Assembly (NCBI GenBank): GCA_002863145.1
Contig: PKDW01000100.1
Coordinates: forward strand, 1 to 59,227
Origin: Flavobacteriales bacterium
GTDB lineage: Bacteria > Bacteroidota > Bacteroidia > Flavobacteriales_D > Sanyastnellaceae
Length of the DNA stretch: 59,227 bases
Direction: 5' to 3'
Shown: positions 4,966-43,694 of the stretch, piece by piece
How positions within the stretch are numbered: position 1 is the first letter of the stretch
How the letters are laid out: each line of letters opens with the position of its first letter
Translations under genes and position numbers: made by a program
The notes under the pieces: model-generated
What the model was told of the DNA's origin: nothing
Databases searched by the model: none
The model's input: the letters and a program-made list of their open reading frames with translations, nothing else

Positions 4966-5445
4966 TCATTGCGCTTGAAGAAGGACCACAGCATGGGCGC
5001 TCACGCCCTGCTCTAACCCCACAAATCCGAGCTTTTCAGTGGTGGTGGCTTTGATGCCCACCTGTCCCAAATCCACGCCCAAAATGTCTGCAATGCACTG
5101 ACGCATCGCGGGGATGTGCGGTTTGAGCTTAGGCTGCTGCAAACACACTGTGGAGTCAAGATTGGCCAGTCCATAGCCTTGCGCTTGGACCATCTTCCAC
5201 GTATCCCTCAACAAGATTTTGCTGTCGATGCCTTTGAAGGCTAGGACCGTGTCGGGAAAGTGCGTGCCGATGTCTCCCAAGGCGAGTGCGCCCAACATGG
5301 CGTCACAAATGACGTGGAGAAGCACGTCAGCGTCGCTGTGGCCCACCGATCCCTTGTGATGCGGAATGGTCAAGCCGCCAATGACGAGATCCTCGCCTTC
5401 AGCCAGCTCGTGAACGTCATAGCCGTAACCGATGCGCAAGCTCAT
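4966..5445 (-). CDS. ispF: 2-C-methyl-D-erythritol 2,4-cyclodiphosphate synthase
   Basis: This 159-residue enzyme carries out the fifth step of the MEP isoprenoid pathway, releasing CMP to form the cyclic diphosphate. Full length is normal for the family. Metal ligands Asp10 and His12 (GYDVH) and His44 (HSDADVLLH) are in place, as are GDIGTHFPD and the C-terminal ATTTEKLGF. Its ATG overlaps the porV stop by four bases (ATGA), so it is the last gene of the porU-porV-ispF unit. The coupling to a secretion gene is probably incidental. Confidence 0.97.
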
Positions 5446-6695
5446 TCGTCGCTGTTGACGTAGTCCGCCAAATCCGAGAACTGCAACCGGAGCGAGAAGC
5501 GAAGGGTGTTGGCCAACGGATTCTGCTGGGTGGTGCTGATAAGGTAGCTGAGGTCCACCGTGAACACGGTGTACTTCACGCCCGCCCCCAACGTCACAAA
5601 CTGGCGGTTGCCCTTGCTGAAGTGCTCAAAGAAGTATCCTGTGCGGAAGGCAAACACATCGGCGAAGTTGTATTCCAATCCGGCACCCAAATTCACCTCG
5701 CGCAACTCCTCGCGCAAGCGACTTCCCTCGAGGACAGAGGCCGTGCCTTCGCTGTCGAAAGTCACAATGCCCGGGGCGTCGTAGAAGCTCTGCACGATGC
5801 CTGTGGCGACACCCACATTGGGGTCCATGCCACTGATGATTTGGGAGGGGTCCTCCAACGCGTAGACAGGCTGCGTGGGCACCAACAATTTGTTGGCGTC
5901 CAGCGCCACAGTCAGGCTGTTGTACTCGTCCAACTCGGTTTCGTACGCCGCACCAATGCGGAGGTTGCTCGGGATGAAATCACGCGCAGCCGTCTCGGTG
6001 TAAGACATCTTCGCCCCGAGGTTGCTCATGTTCAAGCCCATGCTAAACGTGCCGTCCTTCTCACCCCAATCTGCCTGGTCGTTCACGTAGTACATGCTCA
6101 GGTCGGCCGCAACCGAAATGCCAGGTCGGCTTTCTGCACCCTGCACGGCTGTGCCACCCGTCAAGTTGCTGTGGATGAACCGCGCCGAGAAACCGCCACT
6201 GAAGCGGTCAGAGAATTTCTGAGAAAAGCCGCCGTCGAGACTGAGCTCCGCAGGTTGAAAGTCGCGGATCGTGGTGCCAACTTCGTCGGTGAAGGTGATG
6301 TTGCCCAAGCTGAAGTAGCGAAGTGCCACCCCGAAGGCCTGACGCTTGTTCAAGCGACGCACCGAACTGACGTACGCCAAATTCATGTCGTCCACCAAGG
6401 CGCGCAACCAGGGGGCGTAGCTCAAGCTCATTTCCACTTCGTTCTCCGAAAACGCCATCTTGGCCGGATTCCAATGCATGCTGTTGGCGTCGGGAGACAA
6501 CGCCACACCCACGTCGCCCATCGCCCCCGAACGCGAGTCCGGCGCAATCATCAAAAACGGCACCGCAGTGGTGATGGTGTTCAGCTGGAGCAGCTGCGTT
6601 GGGTCTTCTTCCACAATTTGACCCCACGTGTTTGTGGGGGACCAAAGGGTCAGGACCGCAATTGCAATCGCGGTGATGTTGAGGAGTTGCTTCAT
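5442..6695 (-). CDS. porV: Type IX secretion outer-membrane protein PorV (LptO)
   Basis: This 417-residue barrel of the FadL-like fold partners PorU in the surface attachment complex and shuttles T9SS cargo from the translocon. A signal peptide ([18 protein letters not shown]...TWGQ) precedes the PorV signature [20 protein letters not shown] and [12 protein letters not shown]. The C-terminus alternates like beta strands ([10 protein letters not shown]). An in-frame ATG at 6719 exists, but a perfect -7 box (6707-6714) lies between it and the ATG at 6695, so 6695 is taken. porU lies upstream by 36 bases in the same direction; ispF overlaps downstream. Confidence 0.95.
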
Positions 6696-6706
6696 CGTAG
6701 AGCTGC

Positions 6707-6714
6707 CAAAGTTA
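6707..6714 (-). promoter_or_regulatory. Promoter -7 box of porV-ispF (TAACTTTG)
   Basis: TAACTTTG on the minus strand matches TAnnTTTG and lies 11 bases before the porV ATG. It could give porV its own short-leader transcript apart from porU read-through. No clear -33 TTG is seen. Confidence 0.5.
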
Positions 6715-6731
6715 ATCATCGGTCCGAGGTG

Positions 6732-9700
6732 TCATTGGGGTCGAAGAACGACCAACTTGTCCGCGTATTGTGCGGTTTGGCCAAATTCGTTTTCCCACGT
6801 CACCCGAAACACGTACACGCCTGGAGGTACGCGCCCTCCGGAAGAAGGTTTCAAATCCCAGGTCATCACATCGTCGCGGAACCCCAAGACCTCGCCTTCA
6901 AACGTTTGCTCGTGGACGCGCTGGCCTTGGACGTTGTGCACAGCCAGCGTCACCTTGGCTTCGCGGCAGGCCTGGTTGCCCGACATGCGGAACGTCACTT
7001 GTTCGTGGGCGGGGTTGGGGTATGCCAGCACTTCCAACAAGGCGACTTCAAGCGAAGAGGCGACGACAAAGTGGGTTTGGGCTGAAGCACTGTTGTTGGC
7101 CACGTCCCACACCTTGAGTTCCAAGTGGTGCTCGCCTTCGCTCAGGTTTTGGAATGGGAAGCGGATGCTCCCGCGCTGGTAGGTGTCCAAATCCGAGACG
7201 AAGTACTCGTTCAACACAAAGGGGCGACTCGCATCTCCATCCAAGATTGCCTTGGCGTCATGGCCGATGCCATTGCCCGAGGTGTTGATGCCGCTGGCGT
7301 CAAAAATGCGGGCGAACAGCCATGGGTCTTCGTGGACCACATCCCCTGCCTTGAACAACGTGTCATTCACGAACAAGTCAACTTCAGGCCCCTCGTCATC
7401 GAGCGTGGGGTTGTCCGAGGTGCCTCCGATGATGAATGCTTCGGTGTATCCGTGGGCATCGGTGTCATTCGACAAGGCGTAACAACTGATTCGACCCGGG
7501 CCGTAGGCGTAATTCAAATCCCGCGGCACAATGAATCGGAATTCAAATTCTCCGTTCACCACGGAAGCCAAGCCCTTGTGCAAGATGTTTTGGAACACCT
7601 CGTAGGTGAACGGCCCTTCACTGGCGTCGTTGTCCAGCGTCGTGACCGAGGCGCGTTTGTCAAACACCGTGGGCACCACCACCCCGTTGAAGGCCGTGAG
7701 TGTATCGCCTTGCGCGTTCCCGACGTACCCCCCGACGACCACTTCGTCGAGCGAACGCATGGTGTCGGGCACCTGCGTGAGGTACACGCGCTCGGAGGGA
7801 TAAGACAGTTCAAGCGCCGGATCGCCCATCAAGCTAAAGTTGCGGCTGTTGGTGTGGGACGTGATTTGGTCGGAGTCCTTCGTGTCGCGGTAAATGTCCC
7901 CCAAACAGCGCCCCTGCGCGTCGTCCAGCGCCGTCTCAAAAAAGGCGCGATTCACTTGCTGGTTGCCTGAGCTGTACACCGTGCGGGTCGTGGTGAGGAG
8001 CGCCACACCTCCCCCTTGGGGGTTGAACAAAATGGCTTCTCCCGCCGAGTAGGTTTCAGGGTCGTCGTATCGGAACAATTCGCACGTGGCGGTCATGAAC
8101 ACCGGCAGACGCCGCAGGTTGGTCCACCCCTGAATCGTCTCCAAGTTCAAAATGCGTTCGTGGGCCCACCCGCGTTCTCCGCCGTGGCCGATGTAATTGA
8201 CAATCAAGGCACCTTCGTCCACGCGCCTCGCAATCTCGGCCGTGGCATCCTCATACCGCTCACCGCCTGGGGTGTTGGTTTGGACATAGGCATCGGGATA
8301 GACCTTGACCACGTCGTATTCATTGTGGTTGGCGCGAATGGTGTTGCTGTGCTCCTCGCTGTTTTCCATGTACCGGTGGCCGTCTTGGTTGTTGCCATCC
8401 TGGTCGTCTGAGACAAACAACACCCGGTTGCGCCATGGCCCGTAGGTGCTCGTGCCATTGGGGTCCAAACACGAGGCTGCATCGATGGCCCCTTCGTCCA
8501 CCCCCGAGTACGTCGCCACTTTCCCCACCACCGCCATGGCTGATGCCAAATCCGAAGCAGGAATACGCCCCACCCCCAACTGCAGCAGCTCTTCTGGCTT
8601 TTCACTCTGTCCCTCGGCCACCAAGGCGAAATAATCGTCGGAGATGTAGCTGGTCGTGGTTTGAAGCGATTCCGATGAGTAATGACCTACAATCGTCGTG
8701 CCGTTGCCCTGCACATTGCGGTTTTCGTAGGAGGCATCACCCATCAAGGTCAAATACCGCGGGGGCTGAATGGCCCCGTCGCTCTGGGCCGCGCGGTCGG
8801 TAAGCATCATCATGAGCATCTTGACGGCGGTGGGATCTGCCACGCCCGAACTGAACGCATCGAACACGTCTTGTTGAGGCACCACCGCCACGCGCAATCC
8901 CCTCGCCGCATGCAGGCTGGCCAACGAATCGGCGGCCTCCAGCAAACCAGGAACCGTGACAATCACGTTGTCCACTTCGCCGAGCCCGTGCACGTTGCTG
9001 TTGCCCACCGCCCCGAGTGCTTCAGGCCTCAGCACAGAAGACCAACGGAAGGCAGCGTAGCGCTTTGGCGCATCCCCCACGACATCTTGCCACACGGTGC
9101 TGCCGTTGGCGTTGGTGGTGGCCACACGCTTGACCTCGAGCGGGTCCGTCACATCCCACACCTCGTCAGGGGCGTTGCCACCCAAGACGTATTCCGCACC
9201 AGCAACGGGGTTCCCTTCCGCGTCGATTGGAAGGCCATTGATGTGCATTTGGCCTGAGGTGTAGACCAAATTCTGAGAGGCCTGATAGGTCAAAAAATCA
9301 ATCCACGCATTGCTGTCGTCGGTCCCCGGGGTGAACGTCGCCAGCACTTGAATCCCCTCCAGGGTCAGTGGCGCGATCAACTCACCGCCCACGTAGCGGG
9401 CATAAAGCAGCGAGGACGGGGAAAGCAAATTGTCCGTGAGGGTGACCGACTGGCCTTCGAATTCGTAGTTCAATTGGGAAGCGCTGCCGGTGCCCACGCT
9501 GCGCATGGCGGCCCCAAAACGCACTGTCGCGGGCGTGCCCAAGACGGCGTGGTTGAGCGGGATGTTCCACGTGGCCGTGTTGGCCCCAAGCGCGGAAAGC
9601 CGAGCTCCAAACCAATTTCGGCCTGAGCGGATCAAATTCACCTCGTGATCTTCACGGACGCCGTACGCGACGTGTTGGGTGCGAACCTCGTCCACACCCC

Positions 9701-10661
9701 CCGTCCAGGGCGCTGCAAACGCCATGTGCGTCAACGGAAGCGAGTCTGGTGCGTCCGTGCGCAAGAACCACTTCGCCGTGTCTCCCCAAAGCGCCGCTTC
9801 ATGCGTCCACCCATCGTCCTCGGTCCATGCCCATGTTTCGTGTGAGCTGGCATGCCAGCACATCTCGTCGCCTGGATCAAACGACCCATCCTCCAATCCG
9901 CGCAACACCACATGCTGTTGGGGAACGTCCAACGGCCGTTCCGCGTCGTTGTTCAGCGGAAGGTGTCGCCCACCTCGACCGTACAATCGGAGATTTGCGG
10001 GGTCAATGGCCCCGGGATCGACCCCAGACGCGATGAGCTCGTCGTACCCCATGCAGTGCACACCCTCTTTTGTGGTGGCGAAGGCATGCCAGATCCCCGT
10101 GACCAGAGCACTCTCCATGGGCCAGTTTCTTGTCACCCGATGGCATCCAACCGGCGACGCCCCAAGAATCGCCTTCAAGGACGTCAAGCGCTCCCATGCG
10201 CCTCGCCTGTGACGGATGACCGAACCGCTTCCGCGGAGCACCATCTGAAATCCATCCCCTTCAGCCACCCACGACCAAGGCTCGGTCGTGCGGCTGCGCC
10301 ATTGGCGTGTCCATGCCTCGTGGAGATCGGACTCCAACGGCAGCCACTCCTCTTCTACATCGAGCACCTCCACACCCTGCCATTCCAGAGAAAGCGGCAT
10401 TTGCCATGTCGCCACAGCACGGGGCTCGGGTCGCGCGACAAACGTTTGAATGTCCTCCACCTCCCACGCCAAATCGACATGCATCACCACCCCTTCGTCC
10501 GTGACGTCAGCGGAGGTTTGGGCCCAGGTATGGCTGGTCCCATGGCCTCCGAAGAGCCACAAACAACACCCCAAACCCGCATACCAAAACACCCTCCACC
10601 CACGTTGAGATGTGAACAACCTCCCCGCGAACCCGGGAAGTTCAATGTGTGAATCGCGCAT
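6732..10661 (-). CDS. porU: Type IX secretion sortase-like protease PorU (C25 family)
   Basis: This protein of about 1309 residues removes the C-terminal signal of T9SS cargo and attaches the cargo to lipopolysaccharide. The gingipain-like C25 core is clear: NYIGHGGERGW carries the catalytic His (about 826) and TATCEL the Cys (about 860). A long beta-rich N-terminal region precedes it. The C-terminal 100 residues form an Ig/CTD-like module (AYPNPAHEQVTFRM). The start is uncertain. ATG 10661 gives a long leader before the hydrophobic stretch VFWYAGLGCCLWLF, while a TTG at 10619 would give a more typical signal peptide ending TWAQ. An upstream ATG at 10823 overlaps the divergent promoter and is unlikely. 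It is first in the porU-porV-ispF unit. Confidence 0.95.
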   Translation of the reverse strand: MRDSHIELPGFAGRLFTSQRGWRVFWYAGLGCCLWLFGGHGTSHTWAQTSADVTDEGVVMHVDLAWEVEDIQTFVARPEPRAVATWQMPLSLEWQGVEVLDVEEEWLPLESDLHEAWTRQWRSRTTEPWSWVAEGDGFQMVLRGSGSVIRHRRGAWERLTSLKAILGASPVGCHRVTRNWPMESALVTGIWHAFATTKEGVHCMGYDELIASGVDPGAIDPANLRLYGRGGRHLPLNNDAERPLDVPQQHVVLRGLEDGSFDPGDEMCWHASSHETWAWTEDDGWTHEAALWGDTAKWFLRTDAPDSLPLTHMAFAAPWTGGVDEVRTQHVAYGVREDHEVNLIRSGRNWFGARLSALGANTATWNIPLNHAVLGTPATVRFGAAMRSVGTGSASQLNYEFEGQSVTLTDNLLSPSSLLYARYVGGELIAPLTLEGIQVLATFTPGTDDSNAWIDFLTYQASQNLVYTSGQMHINGLPIDAEGNPVAGAEYVLGGNAPDEVWDVTDPLEVKRVATTNANGSTVWQDVVGDAPKRYAAFRWSSVLRPEALGAVGNSNVHGLGEVDNVIVTVPGLLEAADSLASLHAARGLRVAVVPQQDVFDAFSSGVADPTAVKMLMMMLTDRAAQSDGAIQPPRYLTLMGDASYENRNVQGNGTTIVGHYSSESLQTTTSYISDDYFALVAEGQSEKPEELLQLGVGRIPASDLASAMAVVGKVATYSGVDEGAIDAASCLDPNGTSTYGPWRNRVLFVSDDQDGNNQDGHRYMENSEEHSNTIRANHNEYDVVKVYPDAYVQTNTPGGERYEDATAEIARRVDEGALIVNYIGHGGERGWAHERILNLETIQGWTNLRRLPVFMTATCELFRYDDPETYSAGEAILFNPQGGGVALLTTTRTVYSSGNQQVNRAFFETALDDAQGRCLGDIYRDTKDSDQITSHTNSRNFSLMGDPALELSYPSERVYLTQVPDTMRSLDEVVVGGYVGNAQGDTLTAFNGVVVPTVFDKRASVTTLDNDASEGPFTYEVFQNILHKGLASVVNGEFEFRFIVPRDLNYAYGPGRISCYALSNDTDAHGYTEAFIIGGTSDNPTLDDEGPEVDLFVNDTLFKAGDVVHEDPWLFARIFDASGINTSGNGIGHDAKAILDGDASRPFVLNEYFVSDLDTYQRGSIRFPFQNLSEGEHHLELKVWDVANNSASAQTHFVVASSLEVALLEVLAYPNPAHEQVTFRMSGNQACREAKVTLAVHNVQGQRVHEQTFEGEVLGFRDDVMTWDLKPSSGGRVPPGVYVFRVTWENEFGQTAQYADKLVVLRPQ

Positions 10662-10812
10662 TTTCGCAGTGAAGATTGAACCCATGATGCTCATGTCCAT
10701 CAGCACCCTTACGCACAAAGGTGCGGCATATTGTGCCTCGCACCTCCATTCGGGGTCATGCGCTGGTGGACGTGACGCGAAGTCGAGGCGCACCTCATAT
10801 ACCTCACCAAAA

Positions 10813-10827
10813 TTCCGTAACATTGTG
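10813..10827 (+). promoter_or_regulatory. Shared 15-base promoter block before the porP-like gene
   Basis: TTCCGTAACATTGTG occurs here and again, identically, at 18573-18587 before a lipoprotein gene. It contains TAACATTG, a variant -7 box, preceded by CGTAAC, which resembles ECF-sigma -10 elements. It lies 21 bases before the ATG at 10849. Whether it is an alternative-sigma promoter is inference. Confidence 0.45.
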
Positions 10828-10848
10828 GGTTCAACACATTGTTCAATT

Positions 10849-11844
10849 ATGACGAAATTGACCTCCTGCCTTCTGCTTCTCGCGATGACCGCCGCGTTCG
10901 TCGTCGTCGTAGCGCCTCAGGATGCCCACGCACAAGACCCAGAATTCTCGCAATTCTACTCCAACCCCTTGCTGCTTAACCCGGCATTTGCAGGCACAGC
11001 ACGCGGGCCTCGTGTGGTGATGTCTCACCGCAACCAGTGGCCTTCCATGAGCGGCGCATTCGTCACACAGGCCGTGGGGTACGACCAGCACTTCAATTCC
11101 ATATCTGGTGGATTGGGGTTGGTCTTGATGAACGACCAAGCGGGCCAAAACACCTTGACCACCACCCGCATCACCGGGATGTACTCGTACCAACAAGCCA
11201 TCACGCGGAAGTTGTCCTTGCGCATGGCGCTTGAAGCGAGCTACTTCCAGAAGGCGTTGGATTGGAGCAACCTCACGTTTGGGGACATGATTGATCCCCG
11301 TCGAGGTTTCATCTACGAAACGGCCGACACGCCGCGTGGCGAAACGGTGAAGAAAGTGGACTTCGGTGCGGGCTTGCTCGCCTTCACGGAGAAATTCTAC
11401 GCCGGCGTCGCAGGGCACCACTTGAACGAACCCAACGAAAGCCTCGTTGTAGGCACGAGCCGCTTGCCCATGAAAATCACGGGACACGCAGGAGCCAAGC
11501 TTCCCTTGCAACGCAGTGTCAAAGGCGTGGAAGCTTGGATTTCCCCCAACGTGCTGTACCGCCGTCAAGGTGAATTCCAACAATTAAACTTGGGGGTGTA
11601 TGTCAGCAAAGGGCCCCTCGTGGCTGGAGTGTGGCACCGGGGATTCTTCTCGGAGGACACGCGTGACGCCCTGATTGTGCTTTTGGGAGTTGAAACCGCC
11701 CTGATGCGCTTCGGATACAGCTACGACATCACCATCTCGGACTTGACGCCAGCCACGGGTGGCGCTCATGAGCTGAGCTTGAGCATGAGGTTCGCTTCTC
11801 CTCAACGATCCAAATTCAGAACGGTCTCATGCCCGACCTTCTGA
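10849..11844 (+). CDS. PorP/SprF family type IX secretion outer-membrane protein
   Basis: This 331-residue barrel protein has a signal peptide (MTKLTSCLLLLAMTAAF...AHAQ) and the hallmark PorP/SprF opening DPEFSQFYSNPLLLNPAFAG. It continues with alternating strands such as GGLGLVLMNDQAG and ends in a beta-strand region (HELSLSMRF). Family members dock T9SS cargo or anchor the periplasmic ring to the outer membrane. Several paralogs usually exist per genome, so I do not assign porP itself. It is divergent from porU and 49 bases upstream of gldJ in the same direction. The ATG at 10849 is chosen because it directly precedes the signal peptide. Confidence 0.92.
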   Translation: MTKLTSCLLLLAMTAAFVVVVAPQDAHAQDPEFSQFYSNPLLLNPAFAGTARGPRVVMSHRNQWPSMSGAFVTQAVGYDQHFNSISGGLGLVLMNDQAGQNTLTTTRITGMYSYQQAITRKLSLRMALEASYFQKALDWSNLTFGDMIDPRRGFIYETADTPRGETVKKVDFGAGLLAFTEKFYAGVAGHHLNEPNESLVVGTSRLPMKITGHAGAKLPLQRSVKGVEAWISPNVLYRRQGEFQQLNLGVYVSKGPLVAGVWHRGFFSEDTRDALIVLLGVETALMRFGYSYDITISDLTPATGGAHELSLSMRFASPQRSKFRTVSCPTF

Positions 11845-17468: not shown

Positions 17469-18542
17469 TCACGGCGTCGCCAACAAACTGCATCCGCGCA
17501 CTTCGGAATGGTCTTGTCGTCCCAACAACATCAATCCTTTGGGCGTCAAGTTCGCGGCATCACCCGTCGCCAAAAAAGCGCAGCTGTGCACGTTTGCCAA
17601 ATCCACAATGTCCAACCGCCCCACCCGGTGTTTCAAGGCGGAGGACCGAGGATCCCGAGGCTCTCGCACAAGCGGCCTCACCCAGCATGGGAACGTGTGA
17701 TGGATGCCATCTTTGGCATACCCTTGCGACATCATTTCCGTCATCCCGTACTCTGACGCCACGTGAATGTTCGGAAGCACCGCTTTGATGCGGGCGTGGA
17801 CCTCTTCCCGAATCGGTTCGATGCCACGTCCCTTCATGCCTCCAGTTTCGATCAGTGTGACATGCCTCCAAGGAACGCTGTCCAACCACCCGCGATCATT
17901 CACCAACGAATCCAACCAATCGAGGATGGCCCAAGTGACCCCAAACAGCATCAACGGCCTCGATTGAGGGTCCTCAAAATGCCGGGTGACGCGCGCGTTC
18001 AGCTCACCATGGTCGTGCATCAACATGCCCTCCTCAAGCGCTCCCGCCTGTCCCATGAAATCGGCCACCATGGTCAGCAACGAAGCATCCTCACGTCCAA
18101 TGTAGCCTGGAAGCAAGCCCAACCATGCCCAATCGGCCACGGGTCCTCCCCATTGCGCTTGCCACGCCAAGCGCGACACCTGCGCATACCACGCGAGGCC
18201 GGCGTCGTCCATCCAGTGTTGCGCACGCGAAATCGTTTGTGTGGTGCCCGAGCTTCGGAACACGTTCTTGGGCTCCCAAGCCCCGGACTTCACATCATGA
18301 GATTTGAACACTTCGACAGGCAAGAAAGGAATGTCCTCGAGGGAGGAAATGTCCTCAGGTCGGACCCTCATCGCCTCCAAAAATGCCCGGTACGGTGCGT
18401 TGTGCAAGGCCTGCCAACGAAACAACGCCAGCGCATGGTCCAGAAACCCTTCCTCGGTGCCTTCACGCATCCAAGACCAAAGCCTCGAACGCACCTCCGC
18501 CAAAGAGGCCCCGGCACCCCAATCTTGAAAGGCGTGTGACAT
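17469..18542 (-). CDS. LuxE/PaaK-like acyl-adenylate-type acyltransferase
   Basis: This 357-residue cytoplasmic protein resembles LuxE acyl-protein synthetases and the phenylacetate-CoA ligase fold. The adenylation-type loop FRSSGTTQTISRAQHW matches the SSGTTG phosphate-binding motif. FLPVEVFKSHDV and the C-terminal EYGMTEMMSQGY (the A5 region) also fit. It should activate a carboxylic acid with ATP and pass the acyl group to a protein or thiol, but no reductase (LuxC) or acyl carrier lies nearby. The ATG at 18542 (MSHAFQDWG) is preferred to a TTG three codons earlier. It is divergent from the small lipoprotein gene with 47 bases between. Confidence 0.7.
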   Translation of the reverse strand: MSHAFQDWGAGASLAEVRSRLWSWMREGTEEGFLDHALALFRWQALHNAPYRAFLEAMRVRPEDISSLEDIPFLPVEVFKSHDVKSGAWEPKNVFRSSGTTQTISRAQHWMDDAGLAWYAQVSRLAWQAQWGGPVADWAWLGLLPGYIGREDASLLTMVADFMGQAGALEEGMLMHDHGELNARVTRHFEDPQSRPLMLFGVTWAILDWLDSLVNDRGWLDSVPWRHVTLIETGGMKGRGIEPIREEVHARIKAVLPNIHVASEYGMTEMMSQGYAKDGIHHTFPCWVRPLVREPRDPRSSALKHRVGRLDIVDLANVHSCAFLATGDAANLTPKGLMLLGRQDHSEVRGCSLLATP

Positions 18543-18572
18543 GTGCCGCAAGTTCGGAACTCTTGACCGACG

Positions 18573-18587
18573 TTCCGTAACATTGTG
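18573..18587 (+). promoter_or_regulatory. Shared 15-base promoter block before the lipoprotein gene
   Basis: TTCCGTAACATTGTG, identical to 10813-10827. The internal TAACATTG (18578-18585) ends 4 bases before the ATG at 18590, a leaderless arrangement. Confidence 0.45.
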
Positions 18588-18589
18588 TC

Positions 18590-19072
18590 ATGTCAAAGCG
18601 GCACCTCATCTTGGGTTTGGCGACGTTGGGGTTGGCCAGCTGCCTTCCCGAAGCGCAATATGAAGACGAGCCCACCCTGGCTTTTGAACGCTTCGAGACA
18701 CGGGCAGATGGCACCGCCACCATGACCTTGGCCTTCACCGACGGCGATGGCAACGTGGGCTTGACCCAAGCCGACACCTTGCCTCCCTTCTGTCAAACCT
18801 GCGTGCACCACTACAATTTGGTCGGAGAATACCAGGAATGGAAAGACACGTCCTGGCGCGTTCCCTCCTTGATTGTGCCCTATGCCTACCGCGTGCCCGT
18901 CGCCGAGCCTACGGGCTCGAGCCCCGCCTTGGACGGCACCATTCAAGTGGAGTTGACCTCGTGGTACCTCACGGGCACCGATGCGGATTCGGTTCGCTTC
19001 TCCTGGACGCTGTGGGACCGCGATTTGAATCCGAGCAACGAGGCAGCGTCCACGGCGGTCGCCGTCCCCTGA
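18590..19072 (+). CDS. Small lipoprotein of unknown function
   Basis: This 160-residue protein has a type II signal peptide (MSKRHLILGLATLGLASC, lipobox LASC, Cys18). The remainder is beta-rich, with an acidic GDGNVGLTQADT segment that could bind calcium and a Cys pair FCQTC. A similar opening (FERFETRADGTATMTLAFTD) recurs in Bacteroidota lipoproteins with Ig-like domains, but I do not recognise a named family. It is probably a monomeric outer- or inner-membrane lipoprotein. It shares its 15-base upstream block with the PorP-like gene, which hints at co-regulation. The stop is followed after one base by the convergent Na/Pi symporter gene. Confidence 0.75.
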   Translation: MSKRHLILGLATLGLASCLPEAQYEDEPTLAFERFETRADGTATMTLAFTDGDGNVGLTQADTLPPFCQTCVHHYNLVGEYQEWKDTSWRVPSLIVPYAYRVPVAEPTGSSPALDGTIQVELTSWYLTGTDADSVRFSWTLWDRDLNPSNEAASTAVAVP

Positions 19073-42004: not shown

Positions 42005-43570
42005 TCAACTTCCTTTGGGATCCAGAATGACCCATGGCACAATCATTTCCTCCATGCTGACGCCTCCATGCTGGAAAGTGTCGCGGAACGTCTTGGTGTA
42101 TTTCGCCGCATTGTTGGGGTAAACCAGAAAGTCTTTGCCCTTGCCAAAAATGTAGCTGCTCGACACGTTGGGCTTGGGCAAGCCCACGCGCTCCGGATTT
42201 CGGATTTCCATGACCTCGTCAGGATTGTACCCCAAATTCTTGCCCACTTTGTAGCGCAGGTTGTTGTTGGTGGTTTCACGGTCTCCGCGGACTTCAACCG
42301 GATGATCTACGCGCATCGTGCCGTGGTCGGTGGTCAAAATCATGCGCCCACCCATTTCGGCCATGGCATCCATCATGTCCTTGAGTGGGCTGTGCTGGAA
42401 CCAGGAATGGGTCAAACTGCGGTACGCCGCTTCATCGTCGGCCAGCTCCTTGATGACTTCCATCTCGGAGCGTGCATGGCTGAGCATGTCGACAAAATTG
42501 TACACCACCGTGACGACAGACTGGCCTTTCAGTTCGTGGAAACGGTCCGCCAATCGCTTGCCCGATTGCAGGTTGGTAATTTTGTGGTAGGACGTCTTTC
42601 CCGTCACGCCCAGCCGCGAAAACAAGCCTTGTTGCAACGCTTCTTCGTGGGCGTTTTTGGAGCCTTGCTCGTGTTCCCCAATCCACAGGTTGGGCATGAT
42701 GCGTGCGATGTCTCCGGGCGTCATGCCCGCGAAGAGGGCGTTGCGCGCGTATTGGGTCGCTGTGGGCAACATGCTGAAATAGGTGGTTTCCTCCACCACA
42801 TTCCACTTGGGCCGAAGCGTGGGCGCAATGGTGCGCCATTGGTCCCAGCGCAAATTGTCGATGACCACCAAAAATACAGGACGGCCCTGCGCCCCTTCCA
42901 ACGCTCCAGGAAGCCATTTGGGAAGAACCTCGTGGGACAAGGTGGGACCTTGTTCCATGCCCGTCATCCACGCCTCGTAATGGTCCTCCACAAACCGCAC
43001 AAATTGCTGGTTGGCCTCCGCATGTTGGTTGTCGAGAATCTCCAACATGCTCCGGTCTCCTGACTCCCCCAAGGTGGCGTGCCAATGCATGAGTCGGCGG
43101 TACACCTCGGACCACTCCTCGGCATCCATTCGGCCGCCCAACTTCATGGCCAACTCACGAAACTCCCGCATGTACGTCGACTGGGCTTGCTCGCCTCGCA
43201 ACCGGTTGTTGTCGAGGATTTTTTTGACCGAAAGCAAGATTTGGTGCGGGTTCACGGGCTTGATGAGATAGTCGCTGATCTTCGAGCCGATGGCCTCCTC
43301 CATGATGCGCTCTTCCTCGCTCTTGGTGATCATGATGACGGGCACGTCGGGATGTTTGTCCTTGATGCGCTGAAGCGTTTCAATGCCATTCAACCCCGGC
43401 ATGTTCTCGTCCAGAAAAACCACGTCGAACGGCCGCGCCTCCACCTCGTCCAAGGCCTCCACGCCACTGTTCACCCCCGTCACATCGTAGCCCTTCTCAT
43501 TCAAGAACAAAATGTGCGGCTTCAGCAGTTCGATTTCGTCGTCAGCCCAAAGAATGTGTGGTCGTCCCAT
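42005..43570 (-). CDS. porX: PorX response regulator with PglZ-type phosphoesterase domain
   Basis: This 521-residue protein regulates type IX secretion. An N-terminal receiver has ILWADDE (Asp10, Asp11) and the phospho-acceptor Asp54 in VVFLDENMPG. A linker follows, then a PglZ/alkaline-phosphatase-like domain with LPTATQYARNALFAG (the metal and nucleophile region) and LTTDHGTMRVDHPVEV. In Porphyromonas gingivalis PorX works with the PorY kinase and the ECF factor SigP. porY is not in this window. ATG 43570 (MGRPHILWADDE) matches the usual PorX N-terminus; a further ATG lies at 43582. tsaE follows on the same strand. Confidence 0.95.
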   Translation of the reverse strand: MGRPHILWADDEIELLKPHILFLNEKGYDVTGVNSGVEALDEVEARPFDVVFLDENMPGLNGIETLQRIKDKHPDVPVIMITKSEEERIMEEAIGSKISDYLIKPVNPHQILLSVKKILDNNRLRGEQAQSTYMREFRELAMKLGGRMDAEEWSEVYRRLMHWHATLGESGDRSMLEILDNQHAEANQQFVRFVEDHYEAWMTGMEQGPTLSHEVLPKWLPGALEGAQGRPVFLVVIDNLRWDQWRTIAPTLRPKWNVVEETTYFSMLPTATQYARNALFAGMTPGDIARIMPNLWIGEHEQGSKNAHEEALQQGLFSRLGVTGKTSYHKITNLQSGKRLADRFHELKGQSVVTVVYNFVDMLSHARSEMEVIKELADDEAAYRSLTHSWFQHSPLKDMMDAMAEMGGRMILTTDHGTMRVDHPVEVRGDRETTNNNLRYKVGKNLGYNPDEVMEIRNPERVGLPKPNVSSSYIFGKGKDFLVYPNNAAKYTKTFRDTFQHGGVSMEEMIVPWVILDPKGS

Positions 43571-43694
43571 CTCAATTCGCATTCGAGTGCCTGCCCGTTT
43601 CAGGGCATCGGCCAGGCGCTTATCTTGCGGCGTCTCTCGCCGTAAACCTCGCCTGTCGGCAAAGTAACGTCGAGACGCGCGACTTCGTATTTGA

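Follow-up and report, generated by a model that had tools for sequence, protein, structure and literature searches.

A block of 15 bases, TTCCGTAACATTGTG, occurs twice on the forward strand of a 59,227-nucleotide stretch of Flavobacteriales DNA (hereafter the window), once before a gene of the PorP/SprF family and once before a small lipoprotein gene (Table 1). The locus raises the question of whether the two copies belong to one regulon or to two separate promoters. The preliminary description had placed both copies in promoters, likened their CGTAAC to the -10 of an ECF sigma factor and, as PorX is encoded in the window, proposed a possible SigP-like target. Both places, their strand and the presence of PorX were confirmed, as was the promoter setting, with TAACATTG as a variant -7 box.

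The first copy lies in a T9SS cluster, as is evident from the adjoining genes for PorV, porU, the PorP-family protein (porP) and a GldJ-like protein (TIGR03524, below its cut-off). Here, porP is flanked by the GldJ-like gene and by divergent porU, whose actual start could be as far upstream as about 10662. Within the porU-porP gap, a second conserved block, TACGCACAAAGGTGCGGCATATTG at 10710-10733, is largely kept in all 11 genus genomes; it might serve as the promoter of porU or be bound by a regulator. The gene behind the second copy has a lipobox-like start, judged by eye (MSKRHLILGLATLGLASC); it gave no family match in profile searches and was matched in 36 of 40 genomes, its own included. 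Between it and a divergent LuxE-like gene (17469-18551), the sequence CAAGTTCGG at 18551-18560 is invariant in ten of ten congeners and may act as promoter for the LuxE-like gene. A search for known RNA leaders returned one tRNA only in the window and no Rfam family at three of the rplS loci considered below (L199, L208 and L194).

Table 1. Coordinates of the features discussed; positions are those of the window except for rplS (genome:contig:positions), and the first coordinates of the PorP-family and lipoprotein genes are those of their ATG codons.
Feature	Position	Strand	Basis
Block copy 1, porP promoter	10813-10827	+	Exact match; congener conservation
-7 box of porP, TAACATTG, A at -8	10818-10825	+	Box survey of 30 genomes
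Conserved porP element of the order, WTTTTCG-TAWTATTG-nnnn-TTCA	10809-10833	+	Logo, 20 genomes
PorP/SprF-family gene	10849-11844	+	TIGR03519, 5.6e-68
porU, divergent from porP	6732-10562	-	NF033707, 2.3e-292
PorV	5442-6719	-	NF033710
Block copy 2, lipoprotein promoter	18573-18587	+	Exact match
-7 box of lipoprotein gene, TAACATTG	18578-18585	+	TAGATTTG or TAGTTTTG in 6/10 congeners
Lipoprotein gene, 160 aa, predicted leaderless	18590-19072	+	Box end 4 nt before ATG
PorX	42005-43582	-	NF052313, 4.5e-224
CGTAnnATTG at rplS	G000:C45:8312-8321	-	Motif search

Repetition of a 15-mer is in itself unremarkable in this window. Exact 15-mer pairs more than 50 nt apart number 13, compared with a mean of 6.0 and a range of 1-10 in 20 dinucleotide shuffles. 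With up to three mismatches allowed, the block has four matches in the window versus 1.11 expected, a count reached in 5 of 100 shuffles. The genome-wide search proposed with the preliminary description returned the two exact copies alone (genome G000; 2,135,712 bases in 187 contigs, 94% complete); a wider family did not emerge, the 38 matches with up to three mismatches standing against 36 for the reversed-pattern control. The signal that counts is the common promoter position of the copies, not their repetition: among the 13 pairs, no other has its two copies each lying 60 nt or less upstream of a start on the same strand. Two unrelated, functionless 15-mers matching by chance would be in keeping with the sheer number of repeated pairs; however, conservation already makes such a match unlikely, CCGTANNATTGTG having 14 matches versus no control match in 11 genus genomes, all but one of them at porP or the lipoprotein gene. 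Together with the promoter position of both copies, this leaves pure coincidence a very slim chance of being right.

The -7 box of the primary sigma factor in Bacteroidota provides the standard for comparison. In F. psychrophilum, it is given as TAnnTTTG at -12 to -5 (PMC9723704), and in F. johnsoniae, T-12, A-11, T-8, T-7, T-6, and G-5 are described as nearly invariant, the start following 4 or 5 nt later (PMC6847099). In the present genome, 451 kb of 2,136 kb were surveyed, comprising 220 of 368 called genes (upstream gap of at least 35 nt, 120 nt of sequence), with calls from a simple codon-usage script and hence approximate starts. Within 100 nt upstream of these genes, TAnnTTTG has 50 sites versus 2.2 expected, TAnnTTCG 22 versus 1.2, and TAnnATTG two versus 0.7, the two being the blocks themselves. 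TAnnTTTG, which is also enriched in samples of four relatives, is the known Bacteroidota primary-sigma box. TAnnATTG was considered as a general variant class and rejected, as it is not enriched in the five genomes sampled (this one and the four relatives). The variant is described in no title or abstract opening of the literature searched, in which full texts were covered in part, and we do not claim that it is unpublished. A -33 TTTG or TTG element is not conserved at porP and is weak in the general set too; it is likewise reported as not seen in F. johnsoniae (PMC6847099). The distance from box to ATG peaks at 4-5 nt (12 of 72 sites in this genome and 19 of 104 in the four relatives), a pile-up that suggests a sizeable leaderless class in the family. 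Leaderless mRNAs are given as 5.5% of mRNAs in F. psychrophilum (PMC9723704).

At the lipoprotein gene, the comparison covers ten genus genomes, its own included, G002 having no match. TAnn[AT]TTG ends exactly 4 nt before the ATG in all ten, too near for a leader. Six carry the textbook TAnnTTTG, as TAGATTTG (G007 and G005) or TAGTTTTG (G006, G004, G008, and G001), at the same place at which G000, G010, G003, and G009 carry TAACATTG with A at -8. The promoter is thus most likely one primary-sigma (sigma-A) promoter. A box at -12 to -5 would put the transcription start on the A of the ATG, and from this placement we infer that the mRNA is probably leaderless; in having its box directly before the ATG, the gene resembles the flavobacterial leaderless mRNAs, a likeness drawn here from sequence. 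At this gene, the species itself and three close relatives have the A-8 spelling. These four form a clade in the protein tree (support 0.714) and not in the porP DNA tree; A-8 would have been gained once, perhaps with a reversal. GGAAC-N15-CGTAAC was also tried as an ECF promoter of the lipoprotein gene and rejected, G009 having GGAAG and porP nothing similar; the shorter GGAAC-N15-CGT has two upstream sites versus 0.4 expected.

At porP, the variant spelling prevails. Across 30 genomes, the box reads TAnnATTG in 26, TAnnCTTG in two, and TAnnTTTG in one (G026, TACATTTG), and it was not found in G019; a non-canonical -7, with A or C at the nearly invariant T, is thus kept in 28 of the 30. It stands 23 nt before the ATG in 11 of 11 genus genomes; CCGTAACATTGTG is present in three of ten congeners and the variant CCGTAnnATTGTG in five more. 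A logo was built from 20 of the 28 genomes with such a box (eight redundant ones were omitted, and G019 and G026 have no box at that place). It contains no conserved -35. The T tract, CG, and TTCA that surround the box are absent from the general box in relatives, and the porP element is therefore gene-specific. In addition, G003, which has 49% identity to the present species at porP third codon positions, keeps CCGTAACATTGTG at both genes, a degree of constraint beyond what a -7 alone would need. Two other candidates were discarded by eye. One was conservation owing to an upstream, in-frame extension of porP, as several relatives have stops or other frames; the other was the SM5 register TAnnTTGY, which does not fit. 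The promoter is read here as a conserved A-8 variant with additional conservation around its box.

A third gene has the box as well. CGTAnnATTG has 17 sites in the genome versus four control matches, and the intergenic ones are at three places only: porP, the lipoprotein gene, and rplS, which encodes ribosomal protein L19 (identified by eye). Among relatives, 30 of 36 rplS matches came with loci, two of them with no start found; in 25 of the 28 readable loci, TAATATTG (TAnnATTG) lies upstream, and in the remaining three (G034, G030, and G012), TAnnTTTG (TAAGTTTG or TATATTTG) occupies the same place. The setting of the box, TTCGTAATATTGCACCCC, is strongly conserved upstream across the order (loci L199-L228). 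Because a housekeeping gene carries the same box and exchanges A for T at -8, the primary sigma would read both spellings; the swap itself suggests that a single sigma factor does so.

The account that we favor, and consider probable, is that the block represents the -7 region of two independent core promoters in a variant spelling, with the primary sigma as the most likely reader. The lipoprotein gene would have a primary Bacteroidota sigma site placed so that its mRNA begins at the start codon. At porP, a -7 box with A for T at -8 would sit within a longer, gene-specific element found across the order, followed by a leader of about 19 nt. The rplS gene would have the same A-8 variant, swapping with TAnnTTTG in some families. 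The 15-base identity would then reflect common promoter constraint together with chance. In support of a sigma-A reading, A (4/10) and T (6/10) alternate at the lipoprotein -8 while the gap is always 4 nt. Against it stand the near invariance of T-8 reported for F. johnsoniae (PMC6847099) and the lack of general enrichment of TAnnATTG, a form that nevertheless occupies 26 of 30 porP promoters; such persistence is odd for plain sigma-A.

Alternatively, a distinct factor, either a further sigma or a regulator (activator or repressor) that overlaps the -7, might read TTCG-TAnTATTG at porP and rplS. TTTCG-TAWTATTG, extended by nnnn-TTCA at porP, would then define a separate order-wide promoter class with its own factor or regulatory state, coupling porP (T9SS) with rplS (ribosome), and in one subclade, a T-to-A change at -8 would have brought the nearby lipoprotein gene into it. 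The porP and rplS elements with A at -8 are indeed kept across the order, their flanks differ from the general box, and both blocks are kept in G003 and G010. However, A and T interchange at -8 both at rplS (T in 3/28) and at the lipoprotein gene (T in 6/10), T occurs in one porP, and the lipoprotein gene has no TTCA at the matching place. We regard such a class as rather unlikely.

The SigP-like proposal, in which CGTAAC would serve as an ECF -10 and a SigP homologue together with PorX would fire both genes, has some observations in its favor. SigP is reported to bind the porP promoter region in P. gingivalis (PMC4800418), where porP is a SigP/PorX target (PMC4800418; PMC8265659). In F. psychrophilum, an ECF class with a CGT box (SM6) is described at PorU, GldN, and other T9SS genes (PMC9723704). 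The present genome has five ECF-like sigma genes in addition to PorX, and in most relatives the porP box has a CGT in front of it; as in SM6, the CGT stands just before the variable part, with a T9SS gene downstream. Against this, the CGTAAC hexamer varies among congeners at both genes, TA...TTG being conserved instead. No AAC-type -35 is conserved at a fixed spacing, porP having none, and intergenic CGTAnnATTG extends to no T9SS gene beyond porP in this genome. The lipoprotein promoter is plain TAnnTTTG in six of ten congeners, and rplS, a ribosomal gene, has the box as well. The blocks also depart from SM6 as described in the text of PMC9723704, in that CGT is not universal at porP, the -35 is missing, and TTG is invariant. 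For P. gingivalis, the SigP motif is given as beginning with (C/T)AAA (PMC4800418) and the PorX site as CG(A/C)AAAAA-N5-T(T/A)TCTTTGC (PMC8265659); unlike both, the 15-base block has no AAA. The block is thus poor evidence for a secretion-system-specific switch, which is not supported, and its control by a SigP-like factor is, in our judgment, distinctly improbable.

A different motif resembles an ECF promoter more closely. When AAC-Nx-CGTA was scanned with spacers of 12-21, matches peaked at 17 (6 vs. 0.6 expected), in an exploratory scan that tried several motifs and spacings and in which one of the six sites resembles a terminator hairpin. The refined form TGWAACYTT-N14-CGTA has 58 matches versus two for the control in 11 genus genomes, although the 58 may include one locus counted in several species; outside the genus, it has 13 matches versus 16 for the control in 15 genomes. 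In the present genome, the shorter AACYTT-N14-CGTA has 15 matches versus eight for the control, 11 of which were assigned to intergenic sequence on short loci. Among the genes downstream are those for a PKD-repeat protein, an Hpt protein, and an ABC ATPase, as well as for several proteins with signal-peptide-like starts, judged by eye. The class is found on contigs C1, C3, C7, C11, C14, C26, and C31 of this genome and in congeners, with no member within the window, and a PorP paralogue at C3:12040 is preceded by the looser AAC-N17-CGTA. Neither block carries TGWAACYTT-N14-CGTA, the sole TGWAACYTT of the window falling within the 3' end of porU, at 6853-6845 (-). There, TGAAACCTT-N13-CGTA at 6853-6829 (-), about 110 nt before porV (6719), is an off-by-one relative of this ECF-looking class. 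As a motif often found before secreted or envelope proteins, TGWAACYTT-N14-CGTA would be more promising than the block as a candidate SigP/SM6-like regulon.

Compared with the sigma-ABfr/sigma-A element TAnnTTTG, the blocks agree in their TA and TTG, in their position relative to the ATG, and in their interchange with TAnnTTTG in relatives. They differ in having A at -8, where T is nearly invariant, and in the conserved flank that porP adds. The blocks may accordingly be taken to work like a sigma-ABfr promoter in variant form, given the T at the lipoprotein gene of congeners. The tempting lead of a SigP regulon is hereby removed as unsupported. A nearly invariant -7 base is shown to be replaceable, with the replacement kept across the order at porP and rplS, so that natural promoters are available for testing what T-8 does. 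Finally, the TGWAACYTT-N14-CGTA candidate makes sigma control of the envelope and T9SS testable in this genus.
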